A DNA stretch of 40,405 nucleotides, from NCBI GenBank assembly GCA_945905295.1, contig CAMDPX010000044.1:1-40405 (forward strand), read 5' to 3'. The notes under the pieces are model-generated. The model had not been told where the DNA came from, made no database searches, and saw only the letters and a program-made list of their open reading frames with translations. A program made the translations under genes and the position numbers. The stretch's first letter is position 1. Each line of letters starts with the position of its first letter. The stretch comes from Planctomyces sp. SH-PL62 (lineage in GTDB: Bacteria > Planctomycetota > Planctomycetia > Planctomycetales > Planctomycetaceae). Positions 36,274-40,405 of this stretch are shown piece by piece.

Positions 36274-37866
36274 ATGAGCGATCCGTCCGTCAAATTTGTG
36301 GAAGGTCAGACCGTCGGGATTGATTTGGGGACGTCGTACTCCGCGCTGTCGCGATTGGGAGAGGACGGGAATCCCGAAGTCATCAACAACTCGCACGACA
36401 GTCCGATCACGGCGTCGATCGTCGTGCTTGGCGAGAACGGCAAGATCCTTGTCGGGCCGCCGCCAGAGTTGCTGGCTCAGCAAGATCCGAGTCGAGTGGT
36501 CATCGCGATCAAACGTGAGATGGGCAACCCGCGGTTCTCGTTGCACTATCAAGAACGCCGCATGACGCCCGAACTGATTTCGTCGTTGATCCTGACGAAG
36601 CTCAAGACCGATGCCGAGAAAAAGATCGGCCCGATTGGCAACGCGGTCATCACCGTGCCGTACTACTTCAACGAACCCAAGCGAGCGGCCACGAAATACG
36701 CTGGCAAGATCGCGGGCCTCAACGTTGTGGATATCATCAACGAGCCGACGGCCGCCACGCTGGCTTACGCCTGGACGAAAGGGGAACTGGGTCGGCTGGA
36801 TGTGCCCGGCAAGACGAAGACGATTCTGGTCTACGACCTCGGCGGCGGCACGTTCGACGTCACTGTCGTGAAATACACGCCGACGGAATTCACCGTGCTG
36901 GCGACCGATGGCGACACGATGCTCGGCGGTTTGGACTGGACGGAGCGAGTGCTCGACTTTGCGTGCGATAAGTTCGTCGCGAAATACGGCATCGACCCGC
37001 GCGAGGATGTTCTGGCCAAGTACGCGTTGCTGCGCGAATGCGAATCGGCCAAACGAGAACTGAGTCATTGGGTCAAAACGAAGATTGCGGTCACGTATCG
37101 CGGCCAAACTCTGCCGGTCGAACTTTCTCGGCCAGAGTTTGAGCAGATGACGCTCGACTTGCTGCAACGCACGCGCGACACGACAGAGTTCGTCATGGAA
37201 AGCAACAACGTCTCGCGCGACGAAATCAGCGAGGTCTTGCTCGTCGGGGGCAGCACGTCCATCCCCGCCGTCGTCGAGATGCTGGAGAAAGTCACCGGCA
37301 AGCGGCCGTCGAAAGTGCTTAACCCGCAACTCGCGGTTGCTCAGGGTGCCGCCATTCACGCGGCGATCCTCGAAGCCAAAGCGACCGACGCGCACGGACG
37401 GTTGTCCCCGGCTCTTCTCAAGCGTCTGCGAGCCGTCACCACGACGGATGTGAATTCGCACTCGCTCGGCGTCGAGATCACCGATCCGAAGAATCCAAGC
37501 CTCCGACGCAACCACGTCATGATCCCGCGCAACTCGCGGTTGCCCTGCGGGACGAAGAAGCAATTCGTCACCAACACCGAGACGCCGCAAAGCATCGTCA
37601 TCCGACTGCTGCAAGGCGAAGTCAGCGACGTCTCCGCCTGCACCTACATTGGCGACGTGCGGATCAGCCAATTGCCGAAAGCTCTGCCGGTCGGCTCGCC
37701 CGTCGAGGTCGTTTATAGCTACGACCACCGCGGCCACATCACCGTCGCCGCCAAAGAACTCACGGGGGGAGGTTCCGCCGCCGTCGAGATCGCTTGGGAC
37801 GGAGCACTCGACAGCCACGCGATCGAAACCCTGCGGCAACTCACGCAGCAATATCACGTCGAGTAG
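36274..37866 (+). CDS. Hsp70 (DnaK-like) protein lacking the C-terminal lid
   Basis: This is a 530-aa protein, about 100 residues shorter than DnaK. The nucleotide-binding domain is intact: VGIDLGTSYSALS phosphate 1 motif, AVITVPYYFNEPKRAATK, INEPTAATLAYAW, VYDLGGGTFDVTVV phosphate 2 motif and VLLVGGSTSIPAV adenosine motif. A beta-sandwich substrate-binding part follows (residues about 390-500: HSLGVEI, then IPRNSRLPCGTKKQF). The helical lid that closes over the substrate in DnaK is missing, the chain ending after one short helix. It probably binds clients loosely or has a specialised partner. No dnaJ or grpE is adjacent. The stop TAG lies inside the inverted repeat at 37863. Confidence 0.92.
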   Translation: MSDPSVKFVEGQTVGIDLGTSYSALSRLGEDGNPEVINNSHDSPITASIVVLGENGKILVGPPPELLAQQDPSRVVIAIKREMGNPRFSLHYQERRMTPELISSLILTKLKTDAEKKIGPIGNAVITVPYYFNEPKRAATKYAGKIAGLNVVDIINEPTAATLAYAWTKGELGRLDVPGKTKTILVYDLGGGTFDVTVVKYTPTEFTVLATDGDTMLGGLDWTERVLDFACDKFVAKYGIDPREDVLAKYALLRECESAKRELSHWVKTKIAVTYRGQTLPVELSRPEFEQMTLDLLQRTRDTTEFVMESNNVSRDEISEVLLVGGSTSIPAVVEMLEKVTGKRPSKVLNPQLAVAQGAAIHAAILEAKATDAHGRLSPALLKRLRAVTTTDVNSHSLGVEITDPKNPSLRRNHVMIPRNSRLPCGTKKQFVTNTETPQSIVIRLLQGEVSDVSACTYIGDVRISQLPKALPVGSPVEVVYSYDHRGHITVAAKELTGGGSAAVEIAWDGALDSHAIETLRQLTQQYHVE

Positions 37867-37944
37867 GTCAGCCTTTCCAGGCTGACTTGAATGGCGGGTT
37901 GACGCGGCTTGGCCAAAGCGGTCAGCCTGGAAAGGCTGACCTAC
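37863..37944. repeat. Perfect 24-bp double-hairpin repeat supplying two stop codons
   Basis: The arms 37863-37886 and 37921-37944 are exact reverse complements. Each folds alone as GTCAGCCT-TTCC-AGGCTGAC. Both outer ends read GTAGGTC inward. The TAG at 37864-37866 is the stop of the Hsp70 gene, and the TAG read on the other strand at 37943-37941 is the stop of the dioxygenase gene. It is presumably also a two-way terminator for these convergent genes. Confidence 0.92.
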
Positions 37945-38768
37945 GTCGGCAACATCAACTCCGGTAACTCGGCCGAGCGTGTTCCCGGCAACGGCAAATT
38001 GTCCGCCGCGCGAAACGTGAATACGGCCGAGTATTTTGTCTGTATGGAGTAATTGCGACTCGCCGAGTGCAGCGTCTTCGCGTGGAAGAACAGCACGTCA
38101 CCCGGATCAAGCTCCACCGGGACCGCGTTGGCGATGACCGCTTGGTTCTCCGGCAAGTCGCCGCGAAAGAAAAGCGAGTCGTCGAATCGCGAACGGGCGA
38201 AGCTCGTGCGGTGCGAACCGGGAATGACTCGCAGACAGCCATTCTCGACACGTTCCGGCACCAGGGAGATCCACACGCTGATGAGATCCGGTCGTTGATA
38301 GGCCCAGTAGCGGATGTCTTGATGCCATCCCGTGTCGCTGCTGAATTTCGGTTGCTTGGTCATGATGCAGTTGTGGTGCGCCAGCGGCATGGCCACGCGC
38401 GGGCCGAGCAAATCGGCGAGCCGGTCGGTCAGTTCGTGGTCGCTCAGCCACTGCGTGAAGACGGAATGCCGCGAGTGCGCCTGCTTGAGCCGCCGAATCG
38501 TGCGGCCTCCCTCGGCCGCCAGCGAGGTCGGCGCGCCGGGCTAGTGCAGCTCGGCTTCGTACTCGATCGGCCCGATCTCCCGCTCGACGCCGTCCAGCGT
38601 CACGGCCAGCATCTGCTCGCGCACCGCCGCCGGAATGAGCTGCCGAAACACCAGAAACCCGTCGCGCTGAAACCGCTCCCACTCCGCCACGCTCAGCCGC
38701 CGCAACTTTTCGTTTGGCGGCGAGGCGGGTGTCGGAACGGGATCGAGCAAATCAGCAGCCGTGTCCAT
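37941..38768 (-). pseudogene. Phytanoyl-CoA dioxygenase (PhyH) family gene with one in-frame TAG
   Basis: A 276-codon frame from ATG 38768 to TAG 37941 is interrupted only by TAG at 38543-38541. Both sides are in the same frame and the product reads through as one PhyH protein: EYEAELH, stop, PGAPTSLAAEGGRTIRRL. Relatives I recall have Tyr at the stop position (YPGAP), so a single TAC/TAT to TAG change is likely. Fe(II)/2-oxoglutarate ligands are intact downstream (HQD in TGWHQDIRYW, His in KTLHSASRNY), as is the N-terminal RFQRDGFLVFRQL. Alone, the 75-codon first part cannot be active. It may be a fresh nonsense mutation, a sequencing error or a suppressed codon. Confidence 0.82.
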
Positions 38769-38784
38769 GAATTGGCATTTCCCG

Positions 38785-38887
38785 CCACCCTGCTTGCCAG
38801 GGTGGTTCCCGCGCTTCTGCATTACGAATCCTGCTGTGAGTTTCGCGTAGTGCAGAAGCGCTGGAACCACCGACGCAAGGTCGGTGG
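38785..38887. repeat. Composite palindromic element with three nested hairpins
   Basis: The left hairpin is CCACCCTG-CTTGC-CAGGGTGG (38785-38805). The right hairpin is CCACCGAC-GCAAG-GTCGGTGG (38867-38887). Between and overlapping them, 38801-38826 and 38846-38871 form a 26-bp inverted repeat with three mismatches (GGTGGTTCC, GCGCTTCTGCA and complements). It has the same two-hairpin architecture as the other elements, but is longer. It lies directly upstream of the broken PhyH gene. Confidence 0.82.
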
Positions 38888-39033
38888 CGTTCTATCGAGA
38901 GCCTGCCACGATCGCGGTACGGCTCGGCGTCGAAAACAAAAACCGCCGGAAGGCGGAACGACGAACAGATCGTCTTGCTTGCCACCGCGACCTGCAAGGG
39001 ATGCAATTGTCGCGGTCGTGAAGGATGCCGAGC

Positions 39034-39059
39034 CACGGATTTCACGGATCGACACGGAT
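39034..39059. repeat. Three spaced CACGGAT copies
   Basis: CACGGAT occurs at 39034, 39043 and 39053 with 2- and 3-base spacers, just upstream of the phosphoesterase-fold gene. I recall similar CACGGAT-type runs between genes in Planctomycetota and Verrucomicrobiota. Their role is unknown. Confidence 0.6.
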
Positions 39060-39089
39060 GAGGCAAGACGCGGCTGAGTGAATAACTTG

Positions 39090-39833
39090 ATGATGCGAAT
39101 TCAAATTCTGAGCGACTTACATTTGGTGGTTGAAGATTTCACGCCACCGCAAGTTGAGGCTGATGTCGTTGTTCTTGCAGGGAACATTGGGAGTGCAGAA
39201 CGCGGTTTTCGTTGGGCCGCTAAAACATTTGCCGGTCGCGAGGTTATTTATGTGCTTGGCGAGTCCGAGATAGGCAATAAACGCGGGCAAAAAATTGAGA
39301 AGCTGACGGCTATCGGACACGACTTCGGGCTTCATGTTTTGGAAAAGAACAGTATCGAGATCAATGGCGTCCGTTTTATTGGGGCAACAATGGAGACGAA
39401 TTTCAGGTGGTTGCCGAGCGATAAGCTTGTTTGGCGAACCGTTGGGGCAGAGTACGACAAAATTACTCAGACCAAGGGCTTTCGGCAGTTCCGCCACCGC
39501 GATCGTCGTGTCCGGCATCGCATGATCGTGGAAGCTATGACTTGGCTTCGACAAGCCGTCGGTAATGGCAATCGAAACACAATAATCGTCACGAGTGGCG
39601 CGCCCATATCGCGGTCGTTACCTCCCGAACTCAGAGAAGAATGGCTTCATCACGAGTACTCCATCGAACGTGACGAGATATTTGCGGCCTGCCAAGTGCC
39701 AGTTTGGATTCACGGCCAAACGTACTTCAATGTCGATTACACGATCGGCACAACACGAGTCGTCAGCAACCAACGAGGATATCCACGCGACCCTGCACCA
39801 GGATTTCGTCCTGGGTTAGTCGTCGAAGTTTGA
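39090..39833 (+). CDS. Metallophosphoesterase-fold protein with most metal ligands replaced (likely pseudoenzyme)
   Basis: This is a 247-aa protein from ATG 39090 (ATG 39093 is equally possible; residue numbers here count from it). The fold-level pattern of calcineurin-like phosphoesterases is clear: RIQILSDLHL with Asp8 and His10, ADVVVLAGNIG, VIYVLGESE, GVRFIGATMETNF, IIVTSGAP, VWIHGQTYFNVDYTIG and TRVVSNQRGY. The active-site positions are changed: AGDI to AGN31I, GNHE to GE57-S58-E, THHAP to TS168-G169-AP, GHTH to GQ209-T-Y211. Only the first DxH motif is kept, so phosphoesterase activity is unlikely. The frame is intact and the gene is visibly less GC-rich than its neighbours, suggesting transfer. 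A binding or regulatory role is inferred. Confidence 0.75.
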   Translation: MMRIQILSDLHLVVEDFTPPQVEADVVVLAGNIGSAERGFRWAAKTFAGREVIYVLGESEIGNKRGQKIEKLTAIGHDFGLHVLEKNSIEINGVRFIGATMETNFRWLPSDKLVWRTVGAEYDKITQTKGFRQFRHRDRRVRHRMIVEAMTWLRQAVGNGNRNTIIVTSGAPISRSLPPELREEWLHHEYSIERDEIFAACQVPVWIHGQTYFNVDYTIGTTRVVSNQRGYPRDPAPGFRPGLVVEV

Positions 39834-39875
39834 AATCCACCATCGCCTCTTTTTCTGCCTCAAGGAGTCTTCCCC

Positions 39876-40405
39876 ATGCGAACGATTCTCTCATCTCTGT
39901 TTGTGGTCTTCGCGACATCGACTTGTTTTGCGGCTGACTTGCCGCTGGTTACGGAGGTTGAGCATCAGCCGCTGGTGGCGGCGACGGAGCGGTTGCTGGA
40001 AGCGTTGGATTTTGTCGGTGCTCCGTTGCCGGCGGAGGATACGAAGGCGTTGCAGGGGGCGTTGAAGGAGACCGATGCCAAGGTCGCGAATCGGACCATC
40101 CAACGCGTGCTCGATGCGCATTGCGTCGTGGGGGTGACGATCAATCCGGAGAGTCGCGTGTCGGTCGTCGAGGGGCCGGTGGCGAAGCGGCTCATTCAAG
40201 GGGGGTGGGCGACGTTTTTGATCAAGGTGCAGAACGATGCGGGGATCACGCCGCAGCTCAAGCCGGAGAGTCCGAATTCGGCTCCGCTGTATATGCGCGG
40301 CTCCGTCAACCAGCGGCAGAAGCCGTTGACCGATGAGAAGGACAAACTCGTCAAGCCGGAGGATGTGCCGCATCGGTTTCTCGACATCGCCATGTTCGAC
40401 AAGCA
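39876..40405 (+). CDS. Exported planctomycete protein, N-terminal part (cut by window edge)
   Basis: An open frame begins at ATG 39876, eight bases after AAGGAG, and runs off the window (176 full codons). A signal peptide is clear (MRTILSSLFVVFATSTCFAA). The following region is helical (LVAATERLLEALDFVGAPLP), then beta-rich (GGWATFLIKVQNDAGITPQL, then ESPNSAPLYM, then DVPHRFLDIAMFDK). I recall this pattern at the N-terminus of large secreted planctomycete proteins, some with PHP/CehA-type metallohydrolase domains further on. That part is not visible here, so the enzyme class is not claimed. Confidence 0.8.
   Translation, partial: MRTILSSLFVVFATSTCFAADLPLVTEVEHQPLVAATERLLEALDFVGAPLPAEDTKALQGALKETDAKVANRTIQRVLDAHCVVGVTINPESRVSVVEGPVAKRLIQGGWATFLIKVQNDAGITPQLKPESPNSAPLYMRGSVNQRQKPLTDEKDKLVKPEDVPHRFLDIAMFDK

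Follow-up and report, generated by a model that had tools for sequence, protein, structure and literature searches.

A putative pseudoenzyme of the metallophosphoesterase fold in a variable one-gene slot of a bacterial chromosome

We analyzed a stretch of 40,405 nucleotides, referred to here as the window, and found that one of its genes, at positions 39090 to 39833, encodes a 247-residue protein in which most catalytic residues of the metallophosphoesterase (calcineurin-like) superfamily are replaced while the order of the family motifs and the reading frame are kept. The reading that we favor, with moderate confidence, is that this product is a catalytically dead metallophosphoesterase of the phrog_1649 type, the fold of which was kept under selection in a donor lineage and which now serves as a binder. 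The gene lies in a slot that holds a different single gene in each of seven independent genomes of the same genus. Features and coordinates are collected in Table 1.

Table 1. Positions in the window of the gene, its altered motifs and its surroundings, and genes found in the slot in relatives
Feature	Positions	Strand	Details
Fixed left neighbor, phytanoyl-CoA dioxygenase (PhyH)	37941-38870	-	In-frame stop in this genome only
Conserved noncoding element R, left edge of slot	38921-39014	+	3' core 38974-39003
Hypervariable one-gene slot	39015-39861	.	Seven independent same-genus genomes carry seven other ORFs
Candidate pseudo-metallophosphoesterase ORF	39090-39833	+	247 aa from ATG 39090; no internal stop
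Alternative starts of this ORF	GTG 39078, ATG 39093	+	
Motif I D9-L-H11, sole metal ligands retained	39114-39122	+	Homologue alignments
N32 replacing bridging Asp	39183-39185	+	D in 148/148 homologues having the column
E58-S59 replacing invariant N-H	39261-39266	+	N-H in 151/151 homologues
E102 replacing invariant Trp of TLWTDF	39393-39395	+	151/151 homologues
E121 replacing invariant Asp of MND	39450-39452	+	151/151 homologues; alignment-dependent
S169 replacing invariant first His of THHAP	39594-39596	+	151/151 homologues
Q210 and Y212 replacing both His of GHxH	39717-39725	+	151/151 homologues each
Fixed right neighbor	39876-40405, off contig end, continued on contig C212 of the same genome	+	91-97% identity for the part in the window (seven same-genus genomes)
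Cargo in G008			156 aa; paired Cys motifs
Cargo in G001			229 aa (frame from first Met used); YcxB-like membrane protein, Pfam match under curated cut-off
Cargo in G002			139 aa; DUF4279-like, Pfam match under curated cut-off
Cargos in G006, G004, G003			164, 88, 95 aa; small membrane-like proteins
Cargo in G005 = G007			184 aa; zinc-ribbon-like, Pfam match under curated cut-off

Sequence profile and predicted fold together place the protein in the metallophosphoesterase superfamily. The phrog_1649 "metallo-phosphoesterase" profile covers residues 1 to 234 (E = 1.5e-18), and tblastn at E ≤ 0.01 matched 72 plasmid and 90 phage records, the top one being 34% identical; the altered motifs are thus not an artefact of motif calling. 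Against Pfam Metallophos_2, the protein reached 15.8 bits, below the cut-off of 27, whereas four of four intact homologues easily passed the cut-off of PF00149, so that the miss reflects the altered motifs. Homology at the sequence level to any PDB chain was ruled out, phmmer having returned chance hits only.

The metal center of this fold is built from seven ligands, Asp, His, Asp, Asn, His, His and His, as they are listed for archaeal PolD DP1 (PMC4996933). Five of these seven canonical ligands are lost in the 247-residue protein (D32N, N58E, H169S, H210Q and H212Y). A further substitution, H59S, removes the His of GNH, which we take to be the eighth catalytic residue in all counts given here. 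At the level of motifs, DLH is kept and AGD has become AGN, GNHE has become GESE, THHAP has become TSGAP and GHTH has become GQTY. The TLWTDF and MND motifs, now TMETNF and GAE, carry W102E and D121E; the MND column varies with the alignment, the aligned residue being K124 in the profile alignment and E121 in the others. All these changes, including the preserved order of motifs and the open frame, had been claimed in an earlier sequence-only reading and are confirmed here. A test for the motifs of an active enzyme likewise found DxH present and the bridging Asp, GNH(D/E), the THHAP His and GHxH all missing. Since five of the seven ligands are gone, the two-metal center would be unable to form, and normal phosphoester hydrolysis would not be expected.

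The losses are concentrated at particular positions. Eighteen positions are conserved in at least 98% of 151 homologues, and the protein retains 10 of them (D9, H11, G31, G57, G98, P172, W206, G209, N227 and G230, which include all six Gly/Pro) and has lost the other 8 (D32, N58, H59, W102, D121, H169, H210 and H212). A structural Gly or Pro still adjoins each lost ligand motif. Fisher tests, with groupings chosen after the list of conserved positions had been seen, gave p values of 0.010 for the canonical eight residues against the six Gly/Pro, 0.015 for nine polar positions against nine others and 0.054 for the widest comparison, the canonical eight against the other ten invariant positions. 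The retention of motif I, together with polar replacements that cluster in the former site, would also suit an enzyme with a rebuilt site, in which D9 and H11 together with E58, S59, S169, Q210 and Y212 bind one metal or none and support a different reaction. We consider such an enzyme improbable, as neither the bridging Asp nor any M2 ligand is left and the replacement residues are used at these positions by no homologue.

Among the matches listed, all eight catalytic residues were intact in 167 of 173 distinct homologues, and the remaining six lacked some columns without showing any substitution. The set of 173 was obtained from 206 alignment rows by removing rows with fewer than 180 aligned residues and exact duplicates, which left 174 sequences including the 247-residue protein. 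The search patterns for two of the sources, genome_contigs and viral_contigs, included SDLH, and the viral one also W-[TS]-D, which enriches these sets for intact motif I and Trp; the 247-residue protein itself matches both genome_contigs patterns and the SDLH pattern of the viral_contigs search. The sequence-only reading had raised the prospect of homologues with the same substitutions, and this was not borne out: none of the 173 among the matches listed shared a catalytic substitution. It had also held that close homologues which all keep the metal ligands would speak for local decay. No close homologue was found, the best identity among the matches listed being ∼39%, and all the distant ones keep the ligands.

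A sister with the same substitutions was absent at every taxonomic level searched. In its own genome only the gene itself matched, and a recent duplication of a resident gene was ruled out, as this genome holds no second copy. None was present among the 58 nearest relatives, and a search of the genus with the family profile returned just two phosphoesterases, one in G007 and one in G003, both of a distant and different kind and with their aligned motifs intact. A homologue was found in 1 of 169 other genomes of the family (intact), in 4 of 396 other genomes of the class (L246 to L248 intact, L249 internally shortened with intact N-terminal motifs) and in 9 of 391 other genomes of the phylum, again without matching substitutions. 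Neither genome_contigs nor viral_contigs yielded a sister among the matches listed, and of the three stretches that fit a degenerate DNA version of the altered C-terminal motif, none was a relative by profile. L246, L247 and L248 are full-length intact copies from the same family and class, 33 to 36% identical to the 247-residue protein and with every ligand present. The pseudo-state is so far a singleton, found in 0 of 173 homologues among the matches listed.

Several of the relatives had features of their own. The shortened copy L249 (G779, contig C39), from a species related to G748, lacks ∼160 middle residues and keeps an open frame. An intact relative in G748 (L254, contig C463) lies among small ORFs that follow one another closely on one strand, as in accessory-gene arrays, and no repeat common to these ORFs was found. 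The matched stretch of a Desmonostoc homologue (L034, 3001 to 3741) contains an in-frame stop.

We assessed how far neutral decay could account for the altered gene by simulating it from one intact homologue, with substitutions and without indels, until six of the eight catalytic residues were lost (3,000 runs). Reaching this state took about 389 substitutions and left a mean of 7.7 stops and a mean of 3.2 of eight chosen structural residues. Zero stops occurred in 5 of 3,000 runs, all eight structural residues were intact in 27 of 3,000, and the two together were never obtained (0/3,000); the real gene has no stop and eight of eight structural residues. This outcome is in line with the earlier argument that random decay would usually bring stops or loop losses first. 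Because simulated decay never gave an open frame together with the eight structural residues, the sequence makes it most likely that constraint still acted on the remainder of the protein when the ligands were lost, which is a statement about past loss and not about selection in the present genome.

A competing explanation is that the gene is a useless recent acquisition, the pseudoenzyme state of which reflects, wholly or partly, decay under relaxed selection in a high-turnover slot, caught before the first stop or frameshift. We judge this to be unlikely, though it is the most serious of the rivals. The foreign GC3 of the gene, the fast turnover of cargo in the slot, the absence of the pseudo-state from every relative among the matches listed and the in-frame stop already present in the left neighbor, PhyH, all speak for it, as does a very long branch. 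Of 152 branches, that of the 247-residue protein was the second longest (1.76; median, 0.57); a quick maximum-likelihood tree gave 1.46 against 0.66. The placement of the protein was weakly supported. Its identity to the remaining homologues averages 0.307, which is lower than the average of any of these (lowest, 0.309), and the long branch and low mean identity are also compatible with relaxed constraint. Besides the outcome of the simulation, the GC1, GC2 and GC3 values of the gene (0.597, 0.419 and 0.516), which still follow a coding-like pattern, argue against decay. The earlier claim of a selected, acquired pseudoenzyme is thus partly supported: invariant positions are hit, their structural neighbors are spared and neutral decay fails to reproduce the gene, but the substitutions recur in no homologue among the matches listed. 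The roles suggested along with it, as a nucleotide or protein sensor or as an immunity or decoy protein, gained no support from these analyses.

An AlphaFold2 model of the 247-residue protein (pLDDT, 86.3; pTM, 0.88) showed the two-layer β-sheet fold of metallophosphoesterases. The input alignment consisted of 60 locus-derived homologues, intact ones, so that a confident model is expected and is weak evidence for the protein's own folding. Confidence fell below 50 at residues 112 to 120, 122 to 129 and 189 to 192, which make up part of the region around the former active site. The nearest solved structure by VIA-align was PptH (6unc; Z = 19.0, 3.5 Å over 223 residues), further ones being aq_1956 (2yvt), MPPED2 and Mre11. 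Lower Foldseek rows contained Plasmodium GAP50, Vps29 and the DNA polymerase epsilon B-subunit (5vbn); among the families listed in the VIA-align and Foldseek rows, none was a new functional partner.

The gene is missing from the slot in all eight same-genus genomes, G001 to G008, in which the locus could be aligned. There, the match covers element R, or its right half, and resumes at ∼39847 to 39873, with a gap between. The genes on the left side (Hsp70-like and PhyH) and the right-side gene starting at 39876 are conserved in the relatives. Two of the eight, G005 (contig C86) and G007 (contig C416), are listed as different species and yet are 100% identical over the 1,469 bp that they share; one of these bins may hold the other's contig. 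We counted them once since they are identical over all 1,469 bases, which gives seven independent relatives and, with the 39090-39833 gene, eight cargos in all. BLASTP of cargo against cargo at E ≤ 0.1 gave no match except for the G005/G007 pair. Among the remaining genomes of the genus, G010 has element R on a contig that ends just after it, G011 has the right-hand gene in part only, at the start of a contig, and G009 lacks both R and a close copy of that gene.

All eight distinct cargos have GC3 values of 0.49 to 0.62, against 0.71 to 0.80 in ten other genes of the window. The 39090-39833 gene itself (GC, 0.511; GC3, 0.516) falls below its ten neighbors in overall GC as well (0.59 to 0.62), as had been noted before. 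Its absence from the slot in the relatives and its foreign codon usage support the earlier suggestion of acquisition. The proposal that repeats flank the gene stands for the left side, which has an imperfect 44-nt inverted repeat at 38783 to 38889 and element R, and fails for the right side, where nothing comparable was seen. A transposon was ruled out by the repeat structure, the two sides having no matching repeats. A Pfam scan of 20 ORFs of the window revealed no recombinase gene. A search upstream of the 39090-39833 gene found no promoter-like site, which counts against the favored reading.

That the gene is a product of sequencing or assembly error seems extremely improbable. The assembly is a draft of 476 contigs and the gene is near a contig end, but the ligand positions carry coordinated multibase codon changes within an open frame, and the identity between the flanks and seven related genomes is as expected. 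Bases 40261 to 40405, the final 145 of the window, are identical to the start of contig C212, which bears the rest of the 39876 gene. On the left side, the PhyH frame is open in four whole-frame copies from the genus (L207, L209, L212 and L253) and in L211 (313 codons, one changed marker residue), and a perfect 24-nt inverted repeat at 37863 to 37944, between the Hsp70-like and PhyH genes, is probably a terminator common to both.

The slot is bounded on the left by element R. The 30-nt core of R, with at most one mismatch, was present in 10 of 12 genomes of the genus and in none of the family's 158 other genomes, as a single copy except for two in G001, and a reversed control pattern of the core gave no matches. 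R is more conserved than the flanking genes (97 to 100% over 38 to 46 nt, versus ∼82 to 90% for the flanks in G003 and G004). In G001, two copies of R with its flank (128 nt, 95% identical) surround a 53-nt inverted repeat (L206, 3557 to 3937). The G005/G007 cargo, alone among the cargos, has a second copy of the R core (83%) on its right side. Where R matches in part at other sites of the genome, the match is a ∼25-nt hairpin piece and not the core. A reading of R by eye, with the attC site of an integron gene cassette in mind, revealed no GTTRRRY core. R may have a regulatory function, serve as a recombination site, or do both. A bolder idea, which we regard as a long shot, gives R the role of fixed acceptor in a so far undescribed system that exchanges one gene at a time: the slot would lose its cargo and receive another single AT-rich orphan gene of outside origin, with one such gene in each species. 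Selection would then retain the useful ones, which here would be a disarmed phosphoesterase that serves as decoy or inhibitor, perhaps directed at phage-encoded enzymes of the same family.

If the 247-residue protein is indeed a dead enzyme with a selected fold, catalysis would have been lost in the donor lineage during selection on the fold, and a role as binder or scaffold appears most likely from the sequence. It might use its former pocket or its surface to bind, whether as a scaffold, as a titrating decoy or as a regulator of the substrate or partner of an active relative. Many such relatives are phage- and plasmid-borne, and the protein may have a role against phages. Calcineurin-like pseudoenzymes are known as old scaffold subunits, at least in the case of DNA polymerase B-subunits (PMC4996933); a lone mobile bacterial pseudoenzyme from a phage-rich subfamily, if confirmed, would mean that disarming happens in accessory genes too. 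The rotating one-gene slot, which was not part of the sequence-only reading, is at least as interesting as the pseudoenzyme. With one chromosomal position, one conserved element and seven other unrelated, foreign-looking genes in relatives, it constitutes a natural experiment that allows the entry and exit of single genes from chromosomes without an evident recombinase to be tested directly.

Among known proteins, those of phrog_1649, from giant Caulobacter and Brevundimonas phages, proteobacterial plasmids and cyanobacteria, are homologous to the 247-residue protein from end to end (31 to 39% identity), with the same order of motifs and with DLH, GVRF-GAT, TRVVSNxRGYP and the C-terminal strand in common. 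They keep the eight catalytic residues (167/167 with the columns, among the matches listed), whereas the 247-residue protein keeps two. The nearest solved folds, Mycobacterium tuberculosis PptH (6unc), rat MPPED2 (3rl3) and Rv0805, are 12 to 16% identical (Foldseek) and have the fold but not the function in common with it. PptH and Rv0805 are active metal enzymes. The PADLOC candidate defense family PDC-S10 matches weakly and over residues 2 to 107 only (∼105 residues of the N-terminal half; E = 6.7e-6), and it matches two intact relatives at 3.4e-12 (L246) and 1.2e-11. This match and the small-ORF context of the intact G748 relative are leads to accessory or defense roles, nothing more. A literature search for PDC-S10 by name found nothing, and searches on pseudoenzymes of the metallophosphoesterase family, GAP50 and gene slots of Planctomycetes found, among the papers listed, no description of the 247-residue protein or of the slot. 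A precedent is provided by the eukaryotic DNA polymerase B-subunits, one of which, the Pol epsilon B-subunit 5vbn, was also among the fold-search matches. They are described as containing inactive calcineurin-like phosphodiesterase domains that have lost the metal motifs and turned the fold into a scaffold (PMC4996933). In contrast to these fixed parts of ancient complexes, which have an extra OB domain, the 247-residue protein is encoded by a lone mobile bacterial gene and belongs to another subfamily.
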